Source: Qipengyuania intermedia
GTDB lineage: Bacteria; Pseudomonadota; Alphaproteobacteria; Sphingomonadales; Sphingomonadaceae
Direction: 5' to 3'
DNA length: 64,000 nucleotides
Assembly (NCBI RefSeq): GCF_019711615.1
Contig: NZ_JAIGNS010000002.1
Coordinates: 359,501-423,500 of the forward strand
Below, one piece after another: positions 1-15,200 of the stretch. The translations under genes and the position numbers were made by a program. The notes beneath the pieces are model-generated. The model had not been told where the DNA came from. It worked only from the letters and a program-made list of their open reading frames with translations, and did no database searches. Numbering within the stretch: the stretch's first letter is position 1; every line of letters starts with the position of its first letter.

Positions 1-1327
1 TGGCGGGCATTTCCCGCAGCGCAGGATTCCGACGGAGATAGAACCATTCGGCTCCGAACACTGCGGCAATACCTGCGACCGCATAGGCAACGACCGCAGG
101 GTCGGTTTTGAGCTTGGCGAGGGCAAAAGCCGTCAGGACTACGCCGTCCGCCATGAGCGCCGACCAGAGGATCCAGGCACGCGCGCCTATCTCTTCCCGC
201 AAACCGCGCAGCACGCCCCAATGCACGAGCATGTCCATTACGAGATAGAAGAACGCTCCGAGCGAGGCGATCCGCGAAAGATCGAACAGGACCGCGAGCG
301 TGCCTGCGACAACAACGGTATAGACCAACATGTGACTGCGGATCGGTCCGCTCATGCCAAAATGGCTATGCGGGATCATCTTCATCTCGGTCAGCATGGT
401 CAGCATACGCGAAACGGCGAAAACGCTGGCGATGACACCCGAGGTCGTGGCGGCGATGGCGATTGCCACTGTGAAATAGAAGCCAAGCTCTCCGAGCGCG
501 GGACGCGCAGCCGCCGCAAGCGAATAATCGCGCGCCTCAGCTATTTCTGACGTGCTGAGGCTGGCACCGACCGCCGCCGCGACAAGCAGGTAGACGACCA
601 CGCATATTGCGATCGAGATGATTATGGTTCGACCGACATTCCGGTGCGGATTGATGATTTCACCGCCACTGTTGGTGATGGTGGTGAAACCTTTGAAAGC
701 AAGGATCGAGAAGGCGACCGACGCGAGCAGCGCGTCGAGGCCCGAAAGCACGACCGGCTCTGAGAAGGCACCGTCCGAAAATCCGCTGGCCCAGATCGCC
801 GCAATCGCGAACAGGGCGATGCCGCCGATCTTGATCGCCGACATAATGAGCGAAAATCCGCTGACCGATTTGTTGCCGGCGGCATTCACGAAATAGGCGA
901 AGACGATGAGCGCCAGTGCCGCGACGGAAACCAGAATGCCGCTGCTCTCGAGCCCAAAGGGCCGCAAGGCATAGGTCGCGAAGGTTCGAGCGACCAGGCT
1001 TTCGTTGATGACCATCGACAGCGCCATCAGGAGCGATGCCGAGGCTGCCACGACGCCTGGTCCGTAGGCTTTCTGAAGGATCATCGCGATGCCGCCCGAG
1101 GAGGGCCAGCGGTTCGACATCTTGATGTAGCTGTAGGCGGCGAGCGAAGTAACCAGCGCGCCGGCAATGAACGAAAGCGGAAATAGCGGTCCAGCCAGTT
1201 CGGCAATCTGGCCAGTCAGTGCGAAGATACCGGCGCCGATCATGACGCCGGTTCCCATCGCGACGCCGCCCAGCAATGTTATCGAGGCCGCACTCTCGTT
1301 ATGTTGATCGTCGCCATCTGTCTGCAA
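1..1327 (-). CDS. APC-family amino-acid permease (3' end outside window)
   Basis: Secondary transporter of the inner membrane, probably for amino acids or a related amine. The minus strand reads open from 1327 to the window edge, at least 442 codons. Near the N-terminus it has the APC-type first helix signature GGVAMGTGVMIGAGIFALTG, then a long series of hydrophobic helices and FKGFTTITNSGGEIINPHRN, typical of APC permease helix 6. I chose a TTG start at 1327 because AGGGGA lies six bases upstream and no in-frame ATG fits. A candidate ECF promoter (1378-1402) lies about 50 bases upstream, which would put this transporter under the metal-responsive sigma factor. The substrate cannot be told from the sequence. 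Family call is firm; the start is fairly firm. Confidence 0.85.
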   Translation of the reverse strand, partial: MQTDGDDQHNESAASITLLGGVAMGTGVMIGAGIFALTGQIAELAGPLFPLSFIAGALVTSLAAYSYIKMSNRWPSSGGIAMILQKAYGPGVVAASASLLMALSMVINESLVARTFATYALRPFGLESSGILVSVAALALIVFAYFVNAAGNKSVSGFSLIMSAIKIGGIALFAIAAIWASGFSDGAFSEPVVLSGLDALLASVAFSILAFKGFTTITNSGGEIINPHRNVGRTIIISIAICVVVYLLVAAAVGASLSTSEIAEARDYSLAAAARPALGELGFYFTVAIAIAATTSGVIASVFAVSRMLTMLTEMKMIPHSHFGMSGPIRSHMLVYTVVVAGTLAVLFDLSRIASLGAFFYLVMDMLVHWGVLRGLREEIGARAWILWSALMADGVVLTAFALAKLKTDPAVVAYAVAGIAAVFGAEWFYLRRNPALREMPA

Positions 1328-1377: not shown

Positions 1378-1402
1378 TACGTTGCGTAGCGCCTCACCCC
1401 TC
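1378..1402 (-). promoter_or_regulatory. Putative ECF-sigma promoter of the APC permease
   Basis: On the minus strand GAGGG (1402-1398) is followed after exactly 16 bases by CGTA (1381-1378). This is the same architecture seen upstream of four other genes in the metal island, and it is preceded by a T-run as in the copy at 4198-4222. The box ends 50 bases before the permease start codon. Confidence 0.6.
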
Positions 1403-1609
1403 AAAAAAGTTTCGACATGGTGCGCGCCTGCCCCAGGGGGCGGTTTGGCAAGATAGGGAGTCCGCTTTTCGCGAGGCTTCTCTCAGCACAAGGTGCGTCG
1501 ATAGGAGGCGACGCGTATCGCCAGGGTGGCCCACTGTGAATTTTCTCTAGCAGGTCTCGCGAGAGGTAACTGGCCCTGTTCGACCAATCTGACGTGCCCA
1601 GCAGCCGGA

Positions 1610-2260
1610 TTAAGCTCGACCGGGGGATCGATTGCGCAAATGTGCCTGCGCTTCGCGCACGTCGAGCTCACGCGTGCTGTTTCCGATACGTAACATCAGG
1701 CGCGCGGTACCTCCCTCTACGAGGTAGACAGGATCAGCGCTCCTTTCAGCAATGACCCGGCATACCGTCTTCTCTGTCATTTCGTGAAAACGGCAATGGA
1801 CCAAAGCGCACGCGTGACCGCCGAAACCATCCTTCACGAGGTCCATCACAAGGCGCTCGAACCCATCCCGATTGGCATGTTTGAGTGTCTGCATATCGGC
1901 TTCAATGCCAGTGATGTTCCCATCGTCTCCAACCCCGATAAGCAGTGTTCCGCCCTCATGGTTGAGAAAGCCGGCAACCGTTTTGAGTACGACCTGCTGG
2001 AGTGACCGGTTGACCCGGTTCTCACGCCTGTCCCACCGCAAGGACGATTTGAATTCCAATCGCTCGCCCTCGCCGCGTGCGATAAGAAGCGGCAATTCCT
2101 CGTCGAGTTCGCGTTCGAGAAAAAGTACCTTGGACTGAGCTCGCGCCAACCGCATGTGATACATGCCAAATCCCAGACCAAGGGCGCCGCCGATCACCGC
2201 GTAGATGGCGCTCATGGGAAGCATTTCGAACGCGAAAGCATTTACCAGCCGGCCGATCAT
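1610..2260 (-). CDS. Membrane-anchored Schlafen/AlbA_2 domain protein, probably 5'-frameshifted
   Basis: 216-residue product with a hydrophobic segment near residues 17-35, then an AlbA_2 (Schlafen-type) putative nucleic-acid/ATP-binding domain recognised by GEGERLEFKSSLRWD and GFLNHEGGTLLIGVGDDG. The in-frame ATG at 2260 follows about 50 codons that also look coding (HAVLGAALGITILHPV, then FWYEFG) but have no start codon. An ATG at 2429 begins MRDLQDKAFT in the neighbouring frame and stops at 2397, just where the long frame takes over. A one-base indel near 2400 would join the two into a longer protein with two or more N-terminal membrane segments. Function unknown; the related Schlafen-like fold is found in regulators and nucleases. 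Confidence 0.7.
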   Translation of the reverse strand: MIGRLVNAFAFEMLPMSAIYAVIGGALGLGFGMYHMRLARAQSKVLFLERELDEELPLLIARGEGERLEFKSSLRWDRRENRVNRSLQQVVLKTVAGFLNHEGGTLLIGVGDDGNITGIEADMQTLKHANRDGFERLVMDLVKDGFGGHACALVHCRFHEMTEKTVCRVIAERSADPVYLVEGGTARLMLRIGNSTRELDVREAQAHLRNRSPGRA

Positions 2261-2429
2261 GAACCCAATGGCAGTATTGCTGCCGGTGTCGTGCGACGGA
2301 CCGAACTCGTACCAGAAGACGAGGGTGGTTACCGGATGGAGGATCGTGATGCCGAGGGCAGCACCAAGAACCGCATGGGCGGTTAGCGTTCGAGCGCTAT
2401 GTGAAGGCTTTGTCCTGTAGATCGCGCAT
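2261..2429 (-). pseudogene. Probable 5' part of the Schlafen-domain gene, out of frame
   Basis: Reading from an ATG at 2429 gives MRDLQDKAFT then a stop at 2399-2397. The frame of the downstream gene is open from before this point through ARTLTAHAVLGAALGITIL and TTLVFWYEFG up to the ATG at 2260. The join looks like one protein interrupted by a single-base insertion near 2400, either a real frameshift or a sequencing error. The purine tract before the ATG sits closer than usual for a ribosome-binding site. Confidence 0.45.
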
Positions 2430-2509
2430 TCCCTTTTTTCGTTTTTTCAGGCTACCGGCCTAATGGCTTCGCATGCAAAACGTCTTGTCCCGCGAAGGGC
2501 ATCGGGAAA

Positions 2510-2791
2510 TCAGACCGAATTACCAGTTCGTCTCCGGAAATACCGATAGAGCGGAACCGCGATGAGTGCGATGTACCAGCCATAGAGAAAGCTCCCCACC
2601 GCTCCGGCGAGGAACCCGCGCGGCGTTAGCCATTCGAACCATGGCAGCAACGGAGCCCAGGCTTCATGCATGTGAAAACGCTCGGGCGCGAGGACTCCAA
2701 AGGCGATGCAAAGGAGATAGCTGACAAGCAGGAACACGCTAAGCGTCCAGCCCCATGCGAATATCGAGCTCTTGATTGATCCTTTTACCAT
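2510..2791 (-). CDS. DUF5676-type small membrane protein
   Basis: 93-residue protein with two hydrophobic segments (about residues 8-33 and 58-82) and a basic C-terminus YRYFRRR. It resembles the DUF5676 family of short inner-membrane proteins often found beside copper, silver or mercury resistance genes; its biochemical role is not known. GGGAGAAATGCG precedes the ATG. It lies downstream of the DUF411 gene on the same strand and may share its metal-related context, although a stable hairpin (2836-2871) separates them. Confidence 0.7.
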   Translation of the reverse strand: MVKGSIKSSIFAWGWTLSVFLLVSYLLCIAFGVLAPERFHMHEAWAPLLPWFEWLTPRGFLAGAVGSFLYGWYIALIAVPLYRYFRRRTGNSV

Positions 2792-2835
2792 CGCATTTCT
2801 CCCACTTCGTGCGTGCTGAAATCATGCAATTGGAC

Positions 2836-2871
2836 GGGTCCGGGGCGGTGGGGGCAGCCAGCCCCGGACCC
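2836..2871. terminator. GC-rich 11-bp hairpin between DUF411 and DUF5676 genes
   Basis: GGGTCCGGGGC (2836-2846) pairs perfectly with GCCCCGGACCC (2861-2871) around a 14-base loop. It has no T-run on either strand, so it is either a pause/processing element or an imperfect terminator of the methyltransferase-DUF411 transcript. Confidence 0.45.
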
Positions 2872-2994
2872 TGCGAGAATTCGATAGGCTTCTTACCGCC
2901 TGTCCCGGTTTTACCGGGTTCTGTGTCGCTTCCCGCAAATAATCTTCATCACCTTCATCCCTTTCACGGTGACGCATGGTGTGGTTCCACACAC

Positions 2995-3459
2995 TCACGG
3001 AAAGGACGCGAAGACGCTCCGTCCGGCTGAACCAAAGGCGATGACCTCGAAGGGCTGCACCCGGTCTCCTGCCTCCATGCCGGGAGATCCCAGCGGCATT
3101 CCCGGAACCGCGAGGCCGGCAACGCCGGCGGGCCGTTCGCGCAAAAGCTTGGCGACGGCTTCTGCAGGCACGTGACCTTCGATGATGTATCCATCGACCT
3201 CCATCGTATGGCATGACCATAACTCTTGGGGTACGCCCCGCGCGGTCTTGATCGCCGCCATGTCGTTGCTGTCGACCGATGCCACCTTCGTGTTCATCCC
3301 GTCTTCGACATGGCCTGCCCAGTTGAGACAGCACCCACATCCTGGATCCCGGAACATCGTATAGGTCGCTGCCTGTGCCACGTTCGAACAGGCTGCCAGC
3401 ACGAGCAAGGCCGCGCCGCTAATCGATCGCCGGAACAGGGCAGGCTTTTTCCAGATCAT
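2995..3459 (-). CDS. DUF411 metal-binding periplasmic/lipoprotein
   Basis: 154-residue exported protein of the DUF411 family, associated with copper and other metal resistance. The N-terminus has a basic stretch, a hydrophobic core and LVLAACSN, a plausible lipobox, so the mature protein may be lipid-anchored. The mature part opens with the cysteine cluster FRDPGCGCCLNW, the expected metal-binding site. ELWSCHTMEVDGYIIEGHVP holds a further Cys/His/Met group. I chose the ATG at 3459 because AAGGA lies nine bases upstream and the signal peptide starts there. Its ATG overlaps the stop of the upstream methyltransferase gene (ATGA), so the two are translationally coupled. Confidence 0.85.
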   Translation of the reverse strand: MIWKKPALFRRSISGAALLVLAACSNVAQAATYTMFRDPGCGCCLNWAGHVEDGMNTKVASVDSNDMAAIKTARGVPQELWSCHTMEVDGYIIEGHVPAEAVAKLLRERPAGVAGLAVPGMPLGSPGMEAGDRVQPFEVIAFGSAGRSVFASFP

Positions 3460-4160
3460 TGTGCAATTCCTTTCTTGTATCCGCGCCATAGCGAGATCGT
3501 CCCGGTCACCGTCGGGAACCGGTGGAGCAGGCATGGCTCGGTGAAGATTTCGGCGAATAGTTTTTCGACCTCGCCGTCGGCGCTGGGCTGCGTGTCGCTT
3601 ACGCCGTCAAGCGACTGGACGGTCGCCCGGAAGAGGCTCCGCATGAGTGGGCTATCCTGCTTCATATAATCGGCGATCAAGACGGTTCCGCCTGGCACGA
3701 GCAAGCTTTCGATGGTTTCCAGGATTGCCTGCTTCTTGCGCAAGGGAACCTGGTGAAGGACGAGGCTGCTGACGATCTTGTTCGGCCGCCACCCTGCGGG
3801 CAGCTCGAGGCTTTCGAGAAAGCCATTGTGCCATTTCACGAGATCGGCTCCCGCGCCAAACTTGCGCCGCGCAAGCGCGAGCGCATCCGGGTCGGGTTCG
3901 ACACCGATCAGACCCGCTTCCGGACAATCCGTCATCAAGGCCTTGAGAAGAGTGCCGGTTCCGCTGCCAACATCGATCACCCGGTCGCCGGGGACAAGGT
4001 GCAGCTCTTCGACAATCCTTTGGCGCCAGAGATGTTCGCGGGTGAACAGACCGATCGCCCGGTCGTAAAGCGGCGTCAGAAAGCTCTTGCCAAGAAGAGG
4101 CGTAAATTCGCCGTGATCTTCAGGTGCGGTGATATTGTTCACGAGCTGGTTCCCATTCAT
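3456..4160 (-). CDS. Class I SAM-dependent methyltransferase
   Basis: 234-residue cytosolic protein with a Rossmann-type SAM-binding motif I (VIDVGSGTGTLL), an acidic motif II (GVEPDPDAL) and the later strand VLIADYMKQ. The substrate is unknown. It is the first gene of a two-gene operon with DUF411 and has its own candidate ECF promoter at 4198-4222. It reads away from the sensor/sigma operon and so is probably induced by the same metal signal. A role in modifying a metal or metalloid is possible, but no arsenite-methylase cysteine pattern is evident. Confidence 0.8.
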   Translation of the reverse strand: MNGNQLVNNITAPEDHGEFTPLLGKSFLTPLYDRAIGLFTREHLWRQRIVEELHLVPGDRVIDVGSGTGTLLKALMTDCPEAGLIGVEPDPDALALARRKFGAGADLVKWHNGFLESLELPAGWRPNKIVSSLVLHQVPLRKKQAILETIESLLVPGGTVLIADYMKQDSPLMRSLFRATVQSLDGVSDTQPSADGEVEKLFAEIFTEPCLLHRFPTVTGTISLWRGYKKGIAQ

Positions 4161-4197
4161 CCCGGGTTCGACCCGATTCTGACAGACCCGTCTCGGT

Positions 4198-4222
4198 TAC
4201 GTATGGCGCTGGACATTCCCTC
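4198..4222 (-). promoter_or_regulatory. Putative ECF-sigma promoter of the methyltransferase-DUF411 operon
   Basis: Minus strand: GAGGG (4222-4218), 16 bases, CGTA (4201-4198), preceded by a run of seven T. It stands back to back with the plus-strand copy at 4237-4261, so this intergenic region is a divergent control region. It ends 38 bases before the methyltransferase ATG. Confidence 0.65.
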
Positions 4223-4236
4223 AAAAAAAGAAGTTT

Positions 4237-4261
4237 AAGGGATTGTGCAGGCGAGCGCGTA
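4237..4261 (+). promoter_or_regulatory. Putative autoregulatory ECF-sigma promoter of the cnrYXH-like operon
   Basis: AAGGG (4237-4241), 16 bases, CGTA (4258-4261), 33 bases upstream of the anti-sigma gene ATG. The copy before copA is closely similar: GGGATTG-N10-CGCGTA here, GGGGTTG-N10-CGCGTA there. Positive autoregulation is usual for ECF sigma operons. Confidence 0.65.
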
Positions 4262-4293
4262 TAGGACACGTGCAACCCACAGGAGTTTTTCGG

Positions 4294-4590
4294 ATGCGTG
4301 ACAATCACTCTCTTGATGCGGTGCTCGGAACGCTTTCCACCACCGCCGCCAACGAGGTCCCAGCCGACTTCATGGATGGCGTTTGGCAGCGCGCCGGACA
4401 GCTTGGCGAAATCGCCGACCGACGCCGCCGGACGGCCCTTTTCGTCGGTCTGTTCGTCGTCGGGCTTGGAGCTGGCGCCGGAACGAGCGGTTGGCCCGGC
4501 GGCTATGGCACGTCTTCCGCGTCATTTGGCGAGGGTCTTATCCTCGGCGAACAGCTGTCCCCATCGGCGCTCCTCCATGTGGAGCAATAG
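4294..4590 (+). CDS. CnrY-like membrane anti-sigma factor
   Basis: 98-residue protein with a soluble N-terminal half, a basic stretch EIADRRRR and one transmembrane helix (LFVGLFVVGLGAGAG, about residues 51-65). Size and layout match CnrY (about 95 residues), which holds the sigma factor CnrH at the membrane through its cytosolic N-terminus and contacts the sensor CnrX in the periplasm. Sequence similarity alone would be weak. The call rests on gene order (Y-X-H), length and topology. The ATG at 4294 follows CAGGAG. The next gene starts four bases after its stop codon. A short Gly/Ser-rich periplasmic tail follows the helix. Confidence 0.7.
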   Translation: MRDNHSLDAVLGTLSTTAANEVPADFMDGVWQRAGQLGEIADRRRRTALFVGLFVVGLGAGAGTSGWPGGYGTSSASFGEGLILGEQLSPSALLHVEQ

Positions 4591-4593
4591 GGT

Positions 4594-5028
4594 TTGAAGA
4601 CGACGCATATCGTTCTCGCGGTGCTTCTCGCAGCACTTGCAGGATGCCTCGGCGCGATTGCCGCGGATCGCTGGGCCAATCACGAGGCCGGCTCCGGCCT
4701 CCACGATTTCGTGCACGACGAGCTCACCCTGACGGCCGACCAGGAGCAGCGTCTCGATGCGCTCGAGGCCCGTTTCGCTGTCGAAAGGGCACGGCTCGAA
4801 GGATCGGCGCGCGCAGCCAATGCCCGGCTCGCCCAGGCGATGGAAAACGAGCATGAATACGGCCCCGAGGTCTCGGCCGCGATCGACGAGGTGCATGCAC
4901 GCATGGGCGATCTGCAGAAGGCAACAGTGCGCCATGTCTTCGACATGCGTGAAATTCTCGAACCCGAGCAGCAACGCCAGTTCGACCGCAAGGTCTCCGA
5001 CGCCCTGACCCGCGACCCGCGCGACTGA
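4594..5028 (+). CDS. CnrX-like periplasmic metal sensor
   Basis: 144-residue protein with one N-terminal membrane anchor (residues 6-24) and a helical periplasmic domain of the CnrX/CpxP-like metal-sensor type. The five residues known to bind Ni or Co in Cupriavidus metallidurans CnrX (H42, H46, E63, H119, M123) are all present here at a constant offset of five: H37 and H41 in HDFVH, E58 in ALEARF, H114 and M118 in RHVFDM. Known role: metal binding changes the CnrX-CnrY complex and frees the sigma factor. The start is a TTG placed three bases after the upstream stop. The metal actually sensed here is uncertain because the downstream genes are for copper. Confidence 0.85.
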   Translation: MKTTHIVLAVLLAALAGCLGAIAADRWANHEAGSGLHDFVHDELTLTADQEQRLDALEARFAVERARLEGSARAANARLAQAMENEHEYGPEVSAAIDEVHARMGDLQKATVRHVFDMREILEPEQQRQFDRKVSDALTRDPRD

Positions 5029-5034
5029 AGCGCC

Positions 5035-5595
5035 ATGTCGGGGGCGGGCGACAATCCGGATGAGGCCCTTGTTTCGCAGGCGAGGGCTGGAAACAAGCGG
5101 GCTTTCAGCCAACTCGTCGAGCATGAAACCGGTCGGCTTCTCGCGCTTGCGACACGCATGCTTTCCTCTCCTTCTCAGGCCGAGGACGTTGTTCAGGACA
5201 GCCTCGCTTCGGTGTGGCTGACGCGCCATCGGCTCGATCCGGACAAGCCGATCGGACCCTATCTGACAACCGTCGTCCTCAACCGCTGCCGGGACCGTTT
5301 GCGCAGGCGCAAGGTCGCGGGCTTTTTCGGACTGTCGGGCGATGCCGAACTCCATTCCATCGCCGACGATTTGCCGGGTCCTGAAGCGTTGGCCGTTTCC
5401 AGGGAAGAGCTCAATCTCGTTCAGGCCGAGATCGCGCGAATGCCTGTAAGGCTGCGCGAAGCGCTTGTGCTCGTGACCATCGAGGGGCGTAGCCAGGCCG
5501 AGGCGGCCGATCTTCTCGGAACGACCGAAAAGGCGATCGAAACCCGCGTATATCGCGCGCGCAACAGGCTGAAGGAGCGCTTCGAAAAACTTTGA
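5035..5595 (+). CDS. CnrH-like ECF RNA polymerase sigma factor
   Basis: 186-residue sigma-70 family protein of the extracytoplasmic-function type: region 2 has EDVVQDSLASVWLTRH and region 4 has a helix-turn-helix with EGRSQAEAADLLGTTEKAIE and TRVYRARNRLKERF. It lacks regions 1 and 3. CnrH is about 190 residues. It is the third gene of the cnrYXH-like operon, starting six bases after the sensor gene, and is expected to direct transcription from the RAGGG-N16-CGTA promoters nearby. One of those promoters overlaps its own stop codon. Confidence 0.9.
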   Translation: MSGAGDNPDEALVSQARAGNKRAFSQLVEHETGRLLALATRMLSSPSQAEDVVQDSLASVWLTRHRLDPDKPIGPYLTTVVLNRCRDRLRRRKVAGFFGLSGDAELHSIADDLPGPEALAVSREELNLVQAEIARMPVRLREALVLVTIEGRSQAEAADLLGTTEKAIETRVYRARNRLKERFEKL

Positions 5596-5618
5596 GGGGT
5601 TGGCTGGGCGCGCGCGTA
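5594..5618 (+). promoter_or_regulatory. Putative ECF-sigma promoter of the copAB operon
   Basis: GAGGG (5594-5598) overlaps the sigma-factor stop codon. CGTA follows after 16 bases (5615-5618), and the copA ATG is 33 bases further on. It shares the extended CGCGTA with the copy at 4237-4261. Confidence 0.65.
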
Positions 5619-5650
5619 AGTAACGGTAAACGCCAAGTCAGGAGCCCTTT

Positions 5651-7459
5651 ATGATCGCCGTCAATCGACGCAAGTTTCTCGGAGCCGGAGCAGGAGGAAT
5701 GGGTCTGCTCGGCCTTGCCGGGGCGATGCCTGCCTGGGCACGGGGCGCGGACATCCTCGCCGGTAACGCCCGCAAGGGGCTGGACGAGATATCCGGCCCC
5801 AATATCGACCTCACCGTTGCCCGATCGGCCTTCGCGACCGGCAACAGGCGCGGCGGCGCGATCGCCGTCAATGGCACGATCCCCGGTCCGCTGTTGCGTT
5901 TGCAGGAAGGCACGACCGTCCGGCTCAATGTCCATAACCAGCTCGAGGAAGATACCTCGATACACTGGCACGGTCTGCTCGTGCCGTTCGAGCTAGACGG
6001 CGTACCCGGCGTGAGCTTCCCAGGCGTCAAACCGGGAGAGACCTTCACCGCAGAATTCCCGGTGCGCCAATCGGGCACTTACTGGTGGCACTCGCATAGC
6101 GGCCTCCAGGAACAGGCCGGGCATTACGGCGCGATCGTGATCGATCCCGCGGGACCCGATCCGGTCCAGGCAGACCGCGAATATATCGTGGTGCTGAGCG
6201 AATTCAGCGAAATGTCGCCCCACACGATTTTCGACAAGCTCAAGAAGGGCGAAGGCTACTTCAACTACAACCAGAACACCTGGACCGACGATTACCCGCT
6301 TTCGGGCGAGGATCGCCGGATGTGGGCGAAAATGCGCATGATGCCGACGGACATCCTCGACGTGTCGAGCGCGGCTTATACCTATCTTCTGAACGGCCAT
6401 GGCCCGCTCGACAATCTGGAATACCTCTTCCGCCCGGGCGAACGCGTGCGGCTGCGCTTCATCAATGCCGGCGCCATGACCTTCTTCAATATTCGCATTC
6501 CCGGCCTGCCGATGACCATCGTTCAGGCGGACGGGCAGAACGTCGAGCCGGTGGAGGTCGACGAGTTCCAGATCGGTGTGGCCGAGACATACGACGTCGT
6601 CGTGACGCCGGGCGCGCAACAAGCCTACACGCTGGTCGCGGAGTCGATGGACCGCTCGGGCATGGGTATTGCCACACTCGCGAGCGCACCCGGCGCTCGC
6701 GCCGCCATTCCGCCGCTGCGCGATCCGCCGCTTCTGACCATGGCCGACATGGGCATGAGCGGCATGGACCACGGCTCGTCTGGCGATGCCGGCATGTCGG
6801 GCATGGACCATGGAAGTGGCGGCGACATGGCGGGGATGGATCATGGTTCGTCCGGCCAATCCGAGATGGCAGGCATGGCCGGCATGTCGGGGATGCAGAT
6901 GCGCGACACGTCGCTTCTGCCGCCCGATGTGAAGGTCGGGCCCGGTCTCGACACGGTCTCGATGAACCCGGTCGACCGCATGGGCGATCCCGGCATCGGT
7001 CTCGCCGATGTGCCGCATCGTACGCTCGACTATCGCAAGCTGCGCGCTCTGACTCCACACCGCGAGGGCCGCACGCCGTCCCGGCGAATGGAAATTCATC
7101 TGACCGGCAATATGGAGCGCTACATGTGGTCGTTCGACGGCAAGAAGTTCTCCGCCGTCTCAGACGAGCCGATCCGTTTCGCCTATAACGAGCGCGTGCG
7201 CGTGAAGCTCGTCAACAACACGATGATGGCGCACCCCATTCACTTGCACGGTCATTTCTTCGAGCTGGTCAATGGCGCGCCGGCCGATCGTCAACCGCTC
7301 AAGCACACGGTAAACCTGCAGCCGGGTGGCAGCGCGCAGTTCGACCTGACGGCGGACGAGCCGGGCGACTGGGCCTTCCACTGTCACCTTCTCTACCACA
7401 TGCATGCCGGGATGTTTCAGATCGTCACGGTCGCCAATCCCGACGGGAGCGAAGCATGA
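5651..7459 (+). CDS. copA: Multicopper oxidase CopA, copper resistance
   Basis: 602-residue periplasmic multicopper oxidase, thought to oxidise Cu(I) and sequester copper. The N-terminus NRRKFLGAGAGGMG is a twin-arginine signal. Copper-site motifs appear in the family order: HWHGLL (about residue 104), WWHSHSG (about 146), HPIHLHGHFFEL and the C-terminal HCHLLYHMHAGM that holds the type 1 copper ligands. Residues about 363-418 are a Met/His-rich insert of GMSGMDHGS-type repeats, expected to bind Cu(I). The ATG overlaps nothing and follows AGGAGCCCTTT. Its stop overlaps the copB start (ATGA), so the two form an operon. Confidence 0.95.
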   Translation: MIAVNRRKFLGAGAGGMGLLGLAGAMPAWARGADILAGNARKGLDEISGPNIDLTVARSAFATGNRRGGAIAVNGTIPGPLLRLQEGTTVRLNVHNQLEEDTSIHWHGLLVPFELDGVPGVSFPGVKPGETFTAEFPVRQSGTYWWHSHSGLQEQAGHYGAIVIDPAGPDPVQADREYIVVLSEFSEMSPHTIFDKLKKGEGYFNYNQNTWTDDYPLSGEDRRMWAKMRMMPTDILDVSSAAYTYLLNGHGPLDNLEYLFRPGERVRLRFINAGAMTFFNIRIPGLPMTIVQADGQNVEPVEVDEFQIGVAETYDVVVTPGAQQAYTLVAESMDRSGMGIATLASAPGARAAIPPLRDPPLLTMADMGMSGMDHGSSGDAGMSGMDHGSGGDMAGMDHGSSGQSEMAGMAGMSGMQMRDTSLLPPDVKVGPGLDTVSMNPVDRMGDPGIGLADVPHRTLDYRKLRALTPHREGRTPSRRMEIHLTGNMERYMWSFDGKKFSAVSDEPIRFAYNERVRVKLVNNTMMAHPIHLHGHFFELVNGAPADRQPLKHTVNLQPGGSAQFDLTADEPGDWAFHCHLLYHMHAGMFQIVTVANPDGSEA

Positions 7460-8769
7460 AAATTCGTATTGTCAGCCTGCTCGCATCGGTCGCAGCCGGC
7501 TCAGTTCTCGCCTCCCCCGCGGCGGCGCAGCATGCCGGTCATTCGCCGGCGGAGCCGCAGCAAAGCGCCGAGGCGCAGGCTGACGCGAAGACGAAGTGCG
7601 AGGAAGAAGCCGAGCGCCATCGCGCGATGGGGCATCCGGTTGCAGATGGAGCATGCGAACCGGCTGCTCAACCTGAAGCCGCCATGGACCGCTCGCAGAT
7701 GGATCACTCAACCATGGATCATGGTGCGATGACCGCTCAGGATGGCCATTCTGGCATGACAATGCCTGTGGACGCTGCCCGTCCACAGGCATCGCCCGAA
7801 AGTCATGAAGGAATGGATCACGGCTCGATGCCGCAGGGCAAGCCCGCCGAAGGCGCGATGGATCATTCGCAGATGAATCACGGCGAGATGGGTCAGGCGG
7901 AGGCCAGTTCGTCGATGGACCATGGGCAGATGGATCACAGCCAGATGAACCATGGGGAGACGCCTTCGCAGGACAGGCAGGGCATGGACCATTCGGCGAT
8001 GCAGATGGGCTCGGACGATGATATCCCGCTGCTGCCGCCTCCTCCAGAAGGAGGGAGCGGCCCAGCGCGCGCGGCGGTCGCCATCTGGGGCGAGGAAGCC
8101 ATGAACGAAGCGCGCCGCGAGCTTGTCCGCGAGACCGACGGAGGAATGCGCTTCTGGTTTCAGGGCGACCGGCTCGAGTACCGCGCCCGCGAGGGGAAGG
8201 ATGGATATCTGTGGGACATCCAGGGATATTATGGCGGCGACATCGACAAATTCTGGTTCAAGTCCGAGGGTGAGGGCAGCTTCGGCGAACCCATAGAAGG
8301 CGCCGATGTCCAGGCGCTCTGGAGCCGCGCCATTGCGCCCTTCTTCGATTTCCAGGCGGGTGTTCGCCAGGACCTGACCGGTCCGGAACGCACGCACGCG
8401 GTTATCGGTATCCAAGGGATCGCGCCTTACCAGTTCGAGGTCGATGCCGCGGCCTTCGTCTCCACCAAGGGCGATGTGACGGCGCGTTTTGAGGGCGAAC
8501 TTGATCAGCGCATCACGCAGCGGCTGATCCTTCAACCGCGTGCCGAAATCGCACTTTCCGCTCAGGATATTCCCGAACTCGGCATTGGCGCTGGCCTCGA
8601 CCGGATCGAGGCAGGTCTGCGTCTTCGCTACGAGTTCGCACGCGAATTCGCGCCCTATGTCGGCGTTTCCCAGGAATGGCGCATCGGCGACAGCGCGGAT
8701 TTTGCGCGGGCCGCCGGAGAGGATCCGAGCGTCACCAATTATGTCGTCGGTGTGCGATTCTGGTTCTGA
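7456..8769 (+). CDS. copB: Copper resistance protein CopB, outer-membrane beta-barrel
   Basis: 437-residue exported protein. A signal peptide ends near AAAQHAGHSP. The segment from about residue 25 to 190 is low-complexity and rich in MDHSQM/MDHGQM repeats, a likely copper-binding region. The remaining half is the CopB outer-membrane domain with alternating beta strands and a terminal aromatic residue (GVRFWF), as expected for a barrel assembled by BAM. Its start overlaps the copA stop. Known role in the family: copper binding and tolerance together with CopA. Confidence 0.92.
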   Translation: MKIRIVSLLASVAAGSVLASPAAAQHAGHSPAEPQQSAEAQADAKTKCEEEAERHRAMGHPVADGACEPAAQPEAAMDRSQMDHSTMDHGAMTAQDGHSGMTMPVDAARPQASPESHEGMDHGSMPQGKPAEGAMDHSQMNHGEMGQAEASSSMDHGQMDHSQMNHGETPSQDRQGMDHSAMQMGSDDDIPLLPPPPEGGSGPARAAVAIWGEEAMNEARRELVRETDGGMRFWFQGDRLEYRAREGKDGYLWDIQGYYGGDIDKFWFKSEGEGSFGEPIEGADVQALWSRAIAPFFDFQAGVRQDLTGPERTHAVIGIQGIAPYQFEVDAAAFVSTKGDVTARFEGELDQRITQRLILQPRAEIALSAQDIPELGIGAGLDRIEAGLRLRYEFAREFAPYVGVSQEWRIGDSADFARAAGEDPSVTNYVVGVRFWF

Positions 8770-8793
8770 AATCTCAAAAAGGATAGAACTTCC

Positions 8794-9312
8794 ATGACCA
8801 AGACTTTGACACGCATCGCGGCGACTGCGCTTGTTGCCACGCTGATACCGCTGCCAGCCTTCGCGCAGCAGATGGACCACTCTTCCCATGCGAACCATCA
8901 GATGCACGCGATGGACGCTTCGGCGGACGATGTCGCGGGCGCTGAAGAAACCCTCAAGGCCTATCGCACCGCTCTTGAAGCGCGCGACGCGCAGGCAATG
9001 CGCGCGCTCTTCGCCGAGGACTCGGCGATCTTCGAGAATGGCAAGGCCGAAGGAAGCTTTGCCAATTACATGGAGCACCATTTGGGCCCCGAGCTCGACG
9101 CGATTGTGAGCTTCACCTTTACCGACCCCACGCTGACCGTCACCCGGATGGGGCACATGGCCCATGCCTATGAGACGTATGGCTATCGCATCGAACTTAG
9201 CGATGGCCGGGTGATCGAGCGCGACGGCGTGGCGACATCGGTGCTTGCTCACGATGCGGACGGGTGGAGAATCGTCCAGTACCATTCCTCGTCGCGCGCG
9301 CCGCGCAACTGA
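8794..9312 (+). CDS. Exported NTF2/SnoaL-like protein of copper locus
   Basis: 172-residue protein with a signal peptide (cleavage likely after PAFAQ), a short Met/His patch (MDHSSHANHQMHAMD) and an NTF2-like (DUF4440/SnoaL) fold indicated by ETLKAYRTALEARDAQAMRALFAEDSA-like and WRIVQYHSS segments. No enzymatic activity can be assigned. The Met/His patch right after the signal peptide resembles the repeats in CopA and CopB, which suggests periplasmic copper handling. It lies 24 bases after copB in the same operon. Confidence 0.75.
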   Translation: MTKTLTRIAATALVATLIPLPAFAQQMDHSSHANHQMHAMDASADDVAGAEETLKAYRTALEARDAQAMRALFAEDSAIFENGKAEGSFANYMEHHLGPELDAIVSFTFTDPTLTVTRMGHMAHAYETYGYRIELSDGRVIERDGVATSVLAHDADGWRIVQYHSSSRAPRN

Positions 9313-9339
9313 TTACGGCTTTCGAAGAGGTAGCACCGG

Positions 9340-10071
9340 TTGGCAACGCCGTCGCTGAAGCTGCGCCTGCATGTGCTCGGCAGCAAGATCCACAAATGGC
9401 TGGCGATTTTCGTCGGTGTCCAGGTTCTCTTTTGGATGGGAACCGGCGCCCTCATGTCGTTTCTCGACCTGGAAGAAGTTCGCTCCGAACATGTCGTTTC
9501 GCGTGAACAAGAGGCGCTGCCCGCCGATGCCCCGCTCCCGGCCTGGGTCGCAAACGACGGTACTCTTGCAGCGGTAACGACACGTTCGCTCGACGGCGAT
9601 GCCGTGACCGAGGTCCGCAAGGTTGACGGTAGCGTGAGCCTCCACGATCCGGTGACTGGGCGTAAACTCTCCCCCATCTCGGCGGCAACGGCAAAATCCA
9701 TCGCCTTGCGCGCATGGACCGGGCCGCGCACGACCATCGAGGCCGCACGGATCGTCGATGACCCCATCGGAACCGAGTTTCGCGGCCCTTTTCCGGCCTG
9801 GCAGGTCACCTATGCTGACGAGGCTTCGACGCGCATCTACATCGATGCCGCCAGCGGCACGCTCGGGGCGGCGCGCAGCGATACATGGCGCCTGTTCGAT
9901 TTCATCTGGGGCCTCCACATCATGGACTGGACCGAGCGCGACCGCATCAACAGTTGGTGGCTGCTGCTGTTCGGCATTGGCGGCACGATCATAGCCCTGT
10001 CGGGTTTCGTCCTGCTGGCGAACCGGATGCCGAGGCTGCGCCGCCGCGCAAAGAAGAGCAAGCTCGCCTGA
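9340..10071 (+). CDS. PepSY-domain inner-membrane protein
   Basis: 243-residue protein with an N-terminal membrane helix (about residues 20-42), a periplasmic PepSY-like domain with WQVTYADEASTRIYIDAASG, the motif RLFDFIWGLHIMDW and a second helix near residues 205-228, then a basic tail. PepSY-TM proteins occur in iron and copper loci; their exact role is unclear. The start is a TTG after AAGAGGTAGCACCGG, since no ATG is available upstream of the first helix. It is probably the last gene of the copAB transcript. Confidence 0.75.
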   Translation: MATPSLKLRLHVLGSKIHKWLAIFVGVQVLFWMGTGALMSFLDLEEVRSEHVVSREQEALPADAPLPAWVANDGTLAAVTTRSLDGDAVTEVRKVDGSVSLHDPVTGRKLSPISAATAKSIALRAWTGPRTTIEAARIVDDPIGTEFRGPFPAWQVTYADEASTRIYIDAASGTLGAARSDTWRLFDFIWGLHIMDWTERDRINSWWLLLFGIGGTIIALSGFVLLANRMPRLRRRAKKSKLA

Positions 10072-10226
10072 GCCCATGGGGCTTATTCGCGTGGGCGAAC
10101 GCCTTACCCTCGTTCGCCAGGCCGAACGCGGCCAGGAGCCGAATGCGTTCGACGATCGCGGTGATGCCGCCAGCAAGCGTGACCACCCGGGCGCACTTCA
10201 GTCGCGCTGAACTATCAAATTAATGC
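10072..10226. other. Intergenic region without a convincing gene
   Basis: It holds a 44-codon plus-strand frame (ATG 10076 to a stop near 10207) and an overlapping minus-strand frame. Neither has a ribosome-binding site or recognisable domain. Its end carries the ECF box for the next operon. Confidence 0.5.
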
Positions 10227-10251
10227 GAGGGGCACGCGGCTGCCGTGCGTA
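10227..10251 (+). promoter_or_regulatory. Putative ECF-sigma promoter of the DUF2231 operon
   Basis: GAGGG (10227-10231), 16 bases, CGTA (10248-10251), with the start codon 50 bases downstream. It is the fifth copy of the motif and the most diverged in the bases after GAGGG. Confidence 0.55.
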
Positions 10252-10301
10252 TCAGGCACATAGGTCGCACTTTAACTGCAGGGTCGGGAGACATACGAGA
10301 C

Positions 10302-10973
10302 ATGAAAGCCCCCTCATTTCTGGCGCTGCTCGCCGCAAGCCTGCTCTTCGTCGGACCCGTTCAGGCTCATGGCGACGAAAAGCACGGCGAAGAGGCGAGC
10401 GCCGCGCCTGCTGCCACCAATGGCGATGTGCACGACCAGGCGGCCATGGCACAGATGGGCGAGACTGCGGATGCTGGCGAGTCCTCCGGCGCGCACGATG
10501 AAGCGGGCGCAGCCCATGATGAGGCCGGTGGCCATGCGGATGAGAGCGAAACCGGCGTCATGGCCGTACTGAAAAAGCTGCATCCGGCAACGATCCACTT
10601 CCCGATCGCCTTGTTTTTCATGGCTGCGGCCACCGAATTGTTCGTGATGCGCCGGAAAGGAGCGGGCCTGGAAAGTGCGGTGCGCGTACTCGTCTACGGC
10701 GGAGCAATCGGCGCAGTCGTCGCAGTTCTGTTCGGATGGATTCACACCGGTCTGTGGTTCGGCGGCGATACTGTCATGCAAGTCCATCGATGGACCGGTA
10801 TGCTGATCGCGGTTCTCGGTATTGCGATGGCATACCTCGCGAGCAGGCCGAGCCAGAGCCGCGCATGGTTGCGCGCGTCGATCTTCTCCATGGCGGCACT
10901 CGTTCTCATCCAGGGGTTCCTTGGCGGCGAGCTCGCGCACGGACCGGACCATCTTGGCGTTTCGTGGCTCTGA
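10302..10973 (+). CDS. DUF2231 membrane protein with His-rich periplasmic segment
   Basis: 223-residue protein with a signal peptide (ending near VQAHGDEKH), a His/Asp/Glu-rich linker with HDEAGAAHDEAGGHADE, and a four-helix membrane domain opening with LHPATIHFPIALFF, the DUF2231 signature. The histidines of that motif suggest heme or metal binding, but the function is unproven. I chose the ATG at 10302, which begins a standard signal peptide, over an upstream ATG without one. It is the first gene of a two-gene unit with its own ECF box. Confidence 0.8.
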   Translation: MKAPSFLALLAASLLFVGPVQAHGDEKHGEEASAAPAATNGDVHDQAAMAQMGETADAGESSGAHDEAGAAHDEAGGHADESETGVMAVLKKLHPATIHFPIALFFMAAATELFVMRRKGAGLESAVRVLVYGGAIGAVVAVLFGWIHTGLWFGGDTVMQVHRWTGMLIAVLGIAMAYLASRPSQSRAWLRASIFSMAALVLIQGFLGGELAHGPDHLGVSWL

Positions 10974-10987
10974 AGGAGTTGAATAAC

Positions 10988-11395
10988 ATGCGAATTCTGA
11001 AATCGAACACCGCGATAGCATTTCTCGCGACCGCGCCATTGACGTTCGCTCTCGCCGCTTGTGACCAAGCGCAGGAGAGCACACCGGCTGCTGAGGTTTC
11101 GCCTATGGGCGGAACTGCGGTGATGCCTGGCACGGCACCCGAGGCGGGTCTTGCAGACCCGGCAACCTCTCCCTCCGAAAATGAGGCAGCGGCCGCACGT
11201 CAGGACGCTCTTTCGACAATTGGCGCCGCCACGCCTGCGTCACGGCGCGCTGTCCCGCCCGCATCACGCGCAACTGCCACACCCGCAGCGCCAGCAACGC
11301 GCACGCAACCCGCGAGCGAGGCGACCCCGCCCGCCGATCCCCATGCGGGCCATGACATGTCCTCGATGGCCGATCACGACATGGACAGCATGTGA
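10988..11395 (+). CDS. Met/His-tailed lipoprotein
   Basis: 135-residue protein with a lipoprotein signal (FALAACDQ, lipobox Cys near residue 25), a Pro/Ala/Thr-rich disordered middle and a C-terminal tail DPHAGHDMSSMADHDMDSM that mirrors the copper-binding repeats of CopA and CopB. Likely a membrane-anchored copper chelator or chaperone; this is inferred from composition only. GAAGGAG lies 8 bases before the ATG. It follows the DUF2231 gene by 14 bases. Confidence 0.75.
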   Translation: MRILKSNTAIAFLATAPLTFALAACDQAQESTPAAEVSPMGGTAVMPGTAPEAGLADPATSPSENEAAAARQDALSTIGAATPASRRAVPPASRATATPAAPATRTQPASEATPPADPHAGHDMSSMADHDMDSM

Positions 11396-11476
11396 TCGGG
11401 CGCGTTCCCCGGTGACACGGCTATTCAGGAGATACCCTGGGCAGGAAACCGCAACGAACATCGCAAGATCAGGAAA

Positions 11477-11575
11477 GGACGGCCCCGCCTCCCCCCGAAG
11501 CCCTGCGGGTTGCAGGTGCCCCCAAGGGGCCGTCCAGGAACCCCGCGTGAAGCCCAACCCGACTCGCGGGGTTCC
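11477..11575. repeat. Two adjacent long inverted repeats
   Basis: First hairpin: GGACGGCCCC (11477-11486) pairs with GGGGCCGTCC (11526-11535) and encloses a smaller stem CCTGC (11502-11506)/GCAGG (11512-11516). One base later a second hairpin begins: GGAACCCCGCG (11537-11547) with CGCGGGGTTCC (11565-11575). All stems are perfect. There is no T-run, so this is not a classic terminator. Confidence 0.75.
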
Positions 11576-11915
11576 GCTTGCCCGGCTTTGCTGTCCCCGT
11601 GCCAGGCGCTTGCCGGCATGGCATTGTGCTATGTGAGCAGCGCGCAGAAAATCGCCTCGATGATTATGAAAGCAACCGCATCTGTCGGAATCGGGAAAAG
11701 CCGGAGCGTTGTCGGCTTGGGAGGACGAAGGTAAGCGGTTCACTTAGCGTCTATGGATTGAGCCCGAAGTAGAACGGCCGCATTCGTCCAATCGACGAGC
11801 AGAGTATTTCATTCGATCTCAGACGCAAAACCAGCGCGGAAATAGACGGATATCCGCCAAAAAGGGCTGCTAGTCGCTGCCAATCGCAGATCCGTAGGCG
11901 GAGACCTAAACTGCT

Positions 11916-11940
11916 AGCGATTGGTGATTGATCGCTTTTT
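11916..11940 (+). terminator. Weak intrinsic terminator candidate
   Basis: AGCGAT (11916-11921) and ATCGCT (11931-11936) form a 6-bp stem followed by T's to 11940. No gene is recognised directly upstream on this strand. Confidence 0.4.
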
Positions 11941-12113
11941 GCCGTGGATTGAGAGTTTGGCCGAACGGCTTGTCTGCTTGAGAACAACACTAATAGCCGA
12001 CTGACCGCTAGCGGCCCCTTTCCAGTCAGCGATGGTGAACGAATACGCTACTAAATTTCTACGATGGCCCTTGTGTTACACCGTCCGATGCGAGCCCCCG
12101 CAACCATGAAAGA

Positions 12114-12277: not shown

Positions 12278-15200
12278 TTACTTCCGGGCCGAAGCAACAT
12301 TCCCTGCGCATGTGCGGATATCCAGATCGCGCTGGATGACGTCGCCAGTGTAGGACACGGTGATGGACTCGGCTCCAATCGGGCACAGACGCAGACGTTC
12401 GACCTGGCCGGGATCGATCTGGAGCTGGTATCGCCCGGGCTTGACGCGCTCGAAGAAGTAATAGCCGTCGAGCTCGGTCTTTGCGTAGCTGACGATTTCG
12501 CCCGCCTCGTCGAGCAGCCTCAGCCGGACACCGGAAACTCCCTTGTCGCGTCCTTCATCGACGAAGCGCGCGGTCCCTTCGATCTCGCTGAGCGCGACGA
12601 TCGGATAATCGATCGCATGGATGCGGCCCGACCTCGGGACAACATCGATGCCGCGTTTCGAGGGAGCGAGATCGATGTCCGGCAAGGTGCTGCTGTCGAC
12701 CTGGATTCCGACACGCTGCCCGATGCCCAGCCCGACGAGGCGGGCCACGCCCTCATCGTCGGACGTGGCGGTCTGGTTATACGCCACGAAGTCCACGCCC
12801 TCGATGGTTTCGTCGCGAGGACCGTAGATGCCGTCTCCATCCATGTCGCGGAAAGCCCTCAACGTGGCGCCGCCCGAGCTGGCCATCCCGGGGCGGGCCA
12901 GGAACAGGCTGCGTTTCAGCGGATCGCGCCCGAGGCTGAAGCCGAGCCGCAAGCCGACGAAATAGGATTGGTCGACAAACGAATAATTCGCATCGAGCGC
13001 CAGGCTGAATTCCTCGAACTCCCTGATGCCCGATGCGCCGAAGAAGGGCTTGGCCTCTTCGAAGACATAGCCCGCCTGGCCCCTGATCGAAGTTCGCTCG
13101 TCAAGCGCGTGATCGATCTGGACGCTGGTACTCAGGATATCGGTATCGGGCATGAGAGAGTAGCCCAGCGACAAGCGCCCGCGCGTCTTCGACCGACCGA
13201 GGGTTGCAAGGTCGAAGTTGCCGAAGAGCCGGTTGGTCGCTTCGAGACCGGCGCCGCTGATGCGGGAAAATTCCATGCTGTTCGAGACGAGGAGACCGCC
13301 CGCGCGGGTCGAGGCGCGAAGGCCGGTGGCAAGCGTATTGCGGCCATCGACCGTCTCGTAGGTGCGGAACCGGGCGCTAACCGGGATGGCTAGCCCCGCG
13401 CCTTCGCTGCCAAGTCCGAGAGTGGTATTGAAATCCACCTCGGTTGCCCGGCGCAGGTATTCGGTGCCCAATGCGACCGTCTCGTCCGGAAATTCACCGG
13501 TATATTCGGTATGGTTGACCGTAAGTGCGGAGCGTCCGAACCGTCCCCCGAGCCCGGCTGTCAGCGCCAGGGCTCCGCCATCGGCAATCCCGGCGTCGGC
13601 GCGCACGGCGATACCATCGAAGCCGGTCCGGATGCCTGCGGTGCCCAACCAGCGCTGTTCCCCATCGCGTTCGAACCATGCGCCGCCCAGGACCGTCGTC
13701 ACGTCGGAGGTGAGGCCAAAGGAGAGCTGGGCCGATGTGCGGAGCGAACCGTAGTCCCGCGGTTCGAAGAAGTTGGGTGCCTTGACGCCGAGGAGGTTCT
13801 TTTCGCGCTGCGTGGCGTCGAAGCTGTAGACCAGCTTGCCCTTGGCGAGGCGTCCGTCGCCCACGCTGATGCGTTCGACTTTCTCGCTGCGCTGCCCTTG
13901 GGGACCGAAAAATACCAGCCGGAACACGTTGAGACCGAAATCGACCGGAACCTGCAGGAATTCGTACTGGCCATTGACCGCTTCGCGGGTCGAGCCGATC
14001 AAAATGTCGTTGCGGTAGAGTTCCACTTCATACCCGGCGGGCAGAATGCCGCGCAGGTCGATCTGGTCGAACACCGAGCCCACGTCGGAAGGGGCGTTGG
14101 TGACCGTGAAGCCGCGCCCCGCAACGCTGCGCAGGCCGAGCGGCATCGTGTTCGAACTGACATCCCCGATCGCAAAGGACGTCGCATTCAGCGGTCCGAG
14201 CAGGTCAGCATCGGGATCCATGCGCCCGACCTTGAACAGCGATGCCGTCAATCCGTTGACGGTGTCGCCACTGAGATAGCTTTCCGCAGTCAGGTACCCG
14301 AGATCTCCGGCAAAGAGCATGTCGGCTTCCGCGCGCGTTCCGTAGGTTTGATCGGAAACCGCGCGCAGTTCGATATCCGCACTGGGAAAGGAAATCGGTT
14401 CATAGGCAAGGTCCAGCCGCTCGAAGTCCTTCGCTAGTGCCTTACCCTGCCGCGCTTCCAGCCGGGCGCGGCGGGCTTCGCGCGCGGATCGCTCTTCGAA
14501 GGGGAAGCGCTCGAGCGTGGTTATGTGGACCGTCTGTGTGCGCAGGTCGGGCTTCACCTCGAGCGGGAACAGGCTCTCGAACTGGTCGAGGCGGAGGAAC
14601 ATTTCCCCGTCGAAATCCGCCGCAAGGATCCCGTCTATCGCGATTGTCTTGTCGCCGGCCTGGATCGTGCCGTCGCGCAGGTCGATCGTCAGCGTACGGT
14701 CTTCGCTGAGGATCCAGCCATGCGCATAGCGGCCTTCGTCCGTGACGGTAATCGCGAGATCGAGAATACGCGCGATGCTGCCGAGGGGCAGGTATAGGCC
14801 CTGACGGGTGCCGTAAGCGATGATCGTGTCGCTTTCCTGCGCATTGTTGACGCGGACCTCCAGGATCAATTCGTCCTGGTACGAGATCAGGGGGCCGTCA
14901 TCGCCCAGATTTCCGCCGAGGCCCGGCGCAGATGCGAAAGCGGTGTTGGCAGTCGAAGCGGGCGACGCGGCTTCGTCGACCCCGGGAAGAACTGGCCCGC
15001 TTTTCGCCTGGGCTGCAGGCCTTTTGACGAGCGCAGCCGTCAGCGGCGCGTAAGATGCGACGGCTGCGGCAGAAAGAGCTGCCGGCTGTGGCTCCAGCCG
15101 AGCGGTATTCGTGCTCGTGACCGGCACACTCGGGCTTTCGCTCAACGGCTGAGTGACCGATGCCGGGCTGGACGGCGCGGCAATTACCCCGGCCTCGTCG

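Follow-up and report, generated by a model that had tools for sequence, protein, structure and literature searches.

RAGGG-N16-CGTA promoters and a CnrH-type sigma factor point to a five-unit regulon in a copper cluster of Qipengyuania intermedia

Are the five copies of a short gapped motif in a bacterial copper cluster the promoters of one dedicated sigma factor and, if so, what would that factor sense and control? The question is raised by a 64 kb stretch of Qipengyuania intermedia DNA (assembly GCF_019711615.1, contig NZ_JAIGNS010000002.1, positions 359,501 to 423,500; this whole stretch is the window, and coordinates below are counted from its first letter). The motif, RAGGG-N16-CGTA, surrounds a trio of genes for a predicted anti-sigma factor (Y), a metal sensor (X) and a CnrH-type sigma factor of the extracytoplasmic function (ECF) class, encoded at 5035-5595. 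We consider it highly probable that the five sites are promoters read by this sigma factor and that they make up one regulon. A preliminary description of the sequence had proposed that one ECF promoter motif is common to the five units of a regulon; the comparative data presented here, in particular a spacing peak, conserved positions outside the pattern and the recurrence of the sites at trio loci, strongly support that proposal.

The window contains exactly five matches to the pattern, and their coordinates, strands and 16-base gaps are as first described. Distances were measured from CGTA to the start codon. P1 (GAGGG, 1378-1402, minus strand) lies 50 bases 5' of an APC-family permease gene; P2 (GAGGG, 4198-4222, minus strand) lies 37 bases 5' of a methyltransferase gene; P3 (AAGGG, 4237-4261, plus strand) lies 32 bases 5' of the anti-sigma candidate gene, and so before Y, X and sigma; P4 (GAGGG, 5594-5618, plus strand) lies 32 bases 5' of copA; and P5 (GAGGG, 10227-10251, plus strand) lies 50 bases 5' of the gene for a DUF2231 protein. 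The range is therefore 32-50 bases, one less at its lower end than the 33-50 that had been claimed. All sites point towards the gene downstream, in line with the earlier account, and P2 and P3 stand back to back with 14 bases between their -35 elements. The -35 part is RAGGG and the spacer 16 bases at five of five sites. TTT directly precedes RAGGG at four of them, enough to bear out the remark that several have it; the site at 10227 has TGC instead. In 100 dinucleotide shuffles of the window, the mean number of matches was 0.39 and the maximum was two.

Because the pattern had been chosen after the sites were seen, we re-tested it on loci of relatives that were selected by similarity of their sigma factor, independently of the motif. 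In 58 sigma-similar loci there are 79 distinct RAGGG-Nx-CGTA sites at x = 16, and only 0-8 at any other x from 8 to 25. The profile is flat in 37 loci with unrelated ECF sigma factors, with four sites at x = 16 and 0-8 elsewhere. Eight sphingomonad or Caulobacter plasmid loci contain 18 sites at spacing 16 and 0-4 at other spacings; in two Cupriavidus loci, four sites are found at spacing 17 and 0-1 at others. Locus by locus (L060-L098 and L128), there are two to six matches each, and 0-1 for the reversed pattern. We read the downstream genes in 17 loci (15 trio relatives, the window and one distant locus). Among 79 distinct trio loci, 74 have RAGGG-N15..18-CGTA ahead of the sensor gene, in the stretch containing Y with its promoter, and 66 have it in the vicinity of the sigma stop codon.

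Conservation was counted over 58 non-redundant sites, including those of the window and the plasmid loci, after removal of near-identical spacers. Outside the search pattern, 54 of these sites have T at -1, 45 have G immediately ahead of CGTA and 41 have T at +6, while the spacer is nearly random. We then derived a matrix from 49 sites in diverged loci, with the window and its close kin left out. It ranks the five window sites first (P1, 29.6; P4, 29.0; P3, 28.0; P5, 24.7; P2, 20.3), and the next position in the window scores 12.5. A weak sixth candidate with that score, GCGGG-N16-GGTA with a T-rich lead, lies at 2912-2936 (minus strand), about 120 bases 5' of a DUF5676 open reading frame (ORF). 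Another candidate sixth site (match L013), near a second multicopper oxidase gene, was rejected because it sits inside a CusF gene.

The sigma factor itself has 186 residues, and its closest PDB match is CnrH (4CXF; E 4e-30), followed at a distance by the next best at 7.6e-15. In region 4, which ends at residue 179, K166 and E169 are invariant in all 77 family members that have a residue there (79 aligned). Among 38 other ECF sigma factors, position 166 is G in 18, with K outside the five commonest residues, and position 169 is K or R in 28 and E in four. Judging from these alignments, the change in the region-4 helix may accompany the GAGGG -35 element. The sensor gene (4594-5028, plus strand) encodes a CnrX-type periplasmic protein of the Metal_resist family, closest in the PDB to CnrX and NccX (E 4e-22). 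Its residues H37, H41, E58, H114 and M118 are invariant in ten of ten sensors and align with H42, H46, E63, H119 and M123 of CnrX, which we take to be the full set of CnrX metal ligands. Met123 is described in PMC7689651. A profile of the sensor finds matches in 5 of 385 genomes of the class and 17 of 398 of the phylum, own genome counted. The third protein of the trio (4294-4590, plus strand) has 98 residues; a single hydrophobic stretch covers approximately residues 47-66, and SPxxLL stands at the C terminus. Because SPxxLL is all that it has in common with CnrY by sequence, its predicted anti-sigma role rests on its CnrY-like position and size.

By analogy with CnrYXH, we infer how the system might work. 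RAGGG, with its T-rich upstream flank, would be the -35 element and CGTA the -10 element of sigma-read promoters. The small membrane protein would keep the sigma factor at the membrane until the sensor binds a periplasmic metal ion, upon which sigma would be released and bring RNA polymerase to P1-P5. The free factor would then raise expression of its own trio from P3, of copAB and the genes that follow from P4, and of the methyltransferase-DUF411 unit from P2, together with the units that begin with the DUF2231 gene (P5) and the APC permease gene (P1). On the same strand, a chain of genes continues from the permease gene as far as a cusCBA-like pump, which lies beyond the window, and the output of P1 may run on to this efflux pump.

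Which metal is sensed? Copper is the likely signal, given that copper genes are what the promoters serve. The same promoters and sigma factor could also be governed by a sensor that, like CnrX, responds chiefly to nickel or cobalt. All five nickel/cobalt ligands of CnrX are kept, and according to PMC5557971, Sphingobium sp. ba1 has copA, copB and copC genes, which may or may not belong to such a trio, that are induced by nickel. What speaks for copper is the nature of the genes controlled. A copper oxidase gene also follows sigma in seven of the eight sphingomonad/Caulobacter plasmid loci, the Caulobacter locus being the exception. A primarily nickel- or cobalt-responsive sensor therefore seems to us unlikely, while still deserving serious attention.

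Much less room is left for the idea that the sites are served by another sigma factor, be it EcfG-like, RpoE-like or housekeeping, with the neighboring sigma gene incidental. CGTA does resemble ECF -10 elements in general. EcfG- and RpoE-like promoters, however, have a GGAAC -35 element, and GGAAC-N16-CGT[AT] is not enriched, with three distinct sites in the 58 sigma-similar loci. Moreover, site presence tracks the CnrH-type sigma across genomes. TTTGAGGG-N16-CGTA is present in 85 of 298 family genomes, and its N17 form in 15. It occurs in 41 of the 49 genomes with a sigma match at E<=1e-40, in 36 of them in two or more copies, and in 44 of the remaining 249 (Fisher p 7e-19, to be read with the fact that related genomes are not independent and that sigma factors of greater distance occur in some of the 249). 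In two of the 41 (G115 and G133), the listed matches lie away from the sigma gene. The eight close-sigma genomes that lack the TTTGAGGG form have GAGGG-N16-CGTA with altered T-tracts at the trio; when these and four more loci were inspected, GAGGG-N16-CGTA or GAGGG-N17-CGTA was present at the trio in 12 of 12. We also examined 20 of the 129 sigma-less family genomes, 14 of which have copA: no site lies within 400 bases upstream in any of 22 copA loci, some of which are two pieces of one gene. With site and sigma so closely associated, service by a different sigma factor is very improbable.

In several of these sigma-less loci (L148-L151 and L157-L160), the region upstream of copA often has an ATAC(C)...GGGGTAT near-palindrome, perhaps a CsoR- or CueR-type operator. 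This suggests a regulator swap for the same gene.

Could the motif be the operator of a repressor or activator, or simply a repeat, rather than a promoter? The two back-to-back copies at 4198 and 4237 would suit such a view, but the orientation is fixed towards genes, the spacing is promoter-like, and the sites match mapped cnr start sites. On plasmid pMOL28 of Cupriavidus metallidurans CH34, AAGGG-N17-CGTA precedes cnrY and GAGGG-N17-CGTA precedes cnrC, and both start sites, as printed in PMC9045368, lie exactly 9 bases after CGTA. With reference to Grass 2000, the text of that paper names CnrH as the factor behind cnrYp and cnrCp. GAGGG therefore marks a CnrH-type -35 element. In the window, the predicted starts are 1369 (P1), 4189 (P2), 4270 (P3), 5627 (P4) and 10260 (P5). 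We accordingly give an operator or repeat hardly any credence. The same comparison bears on the preliminary remark that GAGGG differs from the usual GGAAC: the difference is real, but as a new -35 specificity it must be rejected, since the cnr promoters already carry RAGGG before their start sites.

The weakest alternative, that conservation is due only to a single block having been transferred horizontally in recent times, has the high identity of the right-hand part of the block across genera in its favor but is contradicted by the diverged loci, whose sigma factors have 42-75% identity and whose sites are kept with randomised spacers. Transfer probably has a part in the history of the cluster. 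DNA identity of the right-hand part of the block is mostly 92-97% in close relatives of several genera, falling to 79-88% in parts of some relatives such as L077, L081 and L095, and positions 4227-12017 of the window are 99.1% identical to Sphingobium soli. With such high identity between genera, the sigma factor and its promoters seem to move as one, in a module that would bring its own promoters along.

Several observations weigh against a single sigma-read regulon of this kind and should be set out together. The bare pattern shows no enrichment across the genome as a whole (2.70 Mb, 99.98% complete), with 27 matches compared with 50 for the reversed control. Thus, the claim that the whole regulon can be read from the sequence fails for the bare pattern, and context or the extended matrix is needed. 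The genome scan proposed at the outset gave a divided answer. Matches outside the cluster are random-looking: 13 of these 22 fall inside long ORFs by a crude test, five have T at -1, and the best matrix score is 14.3, so that they look like background. On the other hand, five of the 27 lie within the 8.9 kb of the copper cluster, and this clustering, together with conservation in relatives, upholds the claim. The matrix result is itself qualified, as the training sites were pre-selected by the strict pattern; its independent part is the margin over the other exact genome matches (<=14.3). The strict pattern is missing before Y in 5 of 79 trio loci and after sigma in 13 of 79. P4 at 5594 overlaps the TGA stop of the sigma gene, which alone would conserve those bases, and part of the -35 conservation at P4 may be explained in this way. 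The anti-sigma candidate gave no BLASTP alignment with CnrY, and a profile match probability of 0.3%. The nickel induction of Sphingobium cop genes described in PMC5557971 means that copper need not be the signal. Finally, the spacer has 16 bases here and 17 in cnr, and Table 4 of PMC9045368 puts the cnrY start site in the RpoD column.

The genes of the cluster were assigned by Pfam and NCBIfam matches. Unit 1 begins with the APC-family amino acid permease gene (2-1327, minus strand), which has a TTG start and extends beyond the window edge. Between units 1 and 2 lies an SLFN_AlbA_2 ORF (1610-2260, minus strand); the stretch 1413-2536 is absent from the blastn match in many relatives and looks like a site of frequent insertion or loss. 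Unit 2 consists of the S-adenosylmethionine-dependent methyltransferase gene (3456-4160), a gene for a DUF411 protein (2995-3459) and possibly, as its distal gene, one for a DUF5676 protein with two transmembrane segments (2510-2791), all on the minus strand. On the plus strand, the trio is followed by genes for a CopA-type multicopper oxidase (5651-7459; TIGR01480, 776.5 bits), CopB (7456-8769; PF05275), a SnoaL/DUF4440 protein (8794-9312) and a PepSY-TM protein (9340-10071). The DUF2231 membrane protein gene (10302-10973, plus strand) opens unit 5. After it comes a small lipoprotein-like ORF (10988-11395, plus strand) with a His/Met-rich tail and without a Pfam match, possibly the second gene of that unit. 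The copper block shared with relatives has its right-hand limit near 11731-12023, and just past this limit is a 1321-residue ORF (12278-16243, minus strand).

Together, these data allow a regulon, with its predicted sigma factor, sensor, promoter code and start sites, to be read in an anonymous copper cluster that sphingomonads have on chromosomes and on plasmids. They suggest that CnrYXH-type control reaches beyond nickel/cobalt efflux in Cupriavidus, supply a compact pairing of ECF factor and promoter with a -35 element unlike GGAAC, and bring the question of which metal a conserved CnrX-type site selects within reach of direct tests. What is new is the copper output, the five units, the N16 spacing, the spread between genera and the invariant K166/E169 pair. 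Among the literature matches listed, none dealt with sphingomonad copper genes under a sigma factor of the CnrH type, which is weak evidence of novelty, as most subscription journals lie outside the coverage and the spacing and region-4 pair were not searched as such. A bolder version of the model would be a mobile, self-contained copper regulon whose sigma factor reads GAGGG through the Lys-Glu pair and takes all of its promoters along from genus to genus, with a CnrX site either retuned to copper or still sensing nickel/cobalt with a copper output; on present data we would expect this picture to prove right or wrong with equal readiness.

How does the system compare with known ones? Sigma factors of the CorE group, which we take to be ECF44, provide one parallel. 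CorE of Myxococcus xanthus is also an ECF sigma factor linked to copper genes, but according to PMC10141476 a cysteine-rich extension at its C terminus controls it, whereas the sigma factor here is without such an extension and has a separate sensor and anti-sigma candidate. SigF-NrsF of Caulobacter crescentus includes an alphaproteobacterial ECF sigma factor induced by copper stress, according to PMC8224329, with a different anti-sigma factor and different target genes; the terms 'CnrX' and 'heavy metal sensor' have no occurrences in the main text of the paper. The closest likeness is to CnrYXH/cnrCBAT of C. metallidurans pMOL28, and to NccYXH. The order is anti-sigma (here a candidate), sensor, sigma; one promoter precedes Y, and a second, from which resistance genes are driven, comes directly after the sigma gene (here P3 and P4); RAGGG and CGTA form the -35 and -10 elements; the CnrX ligands are kept; and CnrH is the best structural match. 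Unlike in cnr, where a nickel/cobalt efflux pump follows sigma, copper genes follow it here, there are three further promoters (P1, P2 and P5), the Y protein is not alignable to CnrY, and the sigma linker has 25 residues rather than 29. Spacer length might depend on linker length: L138, L147 and L206 combine a linker of 29 with a spacer of 17, but loci with a linker of 28 are mixed. The 17-base spacer is found in both Cupriavidus loci and in L206, which belongs to a genome of another class. L179 (genome G280, 1451-2800), a trio locus from the window's own family, has a 17-base spacer at each of its three GAGGG...CGTA trio sites. Because some loci of the window's own family thus also use 17, we take the 16-base spacer to be a variant trait of a CnrYXH-type system.

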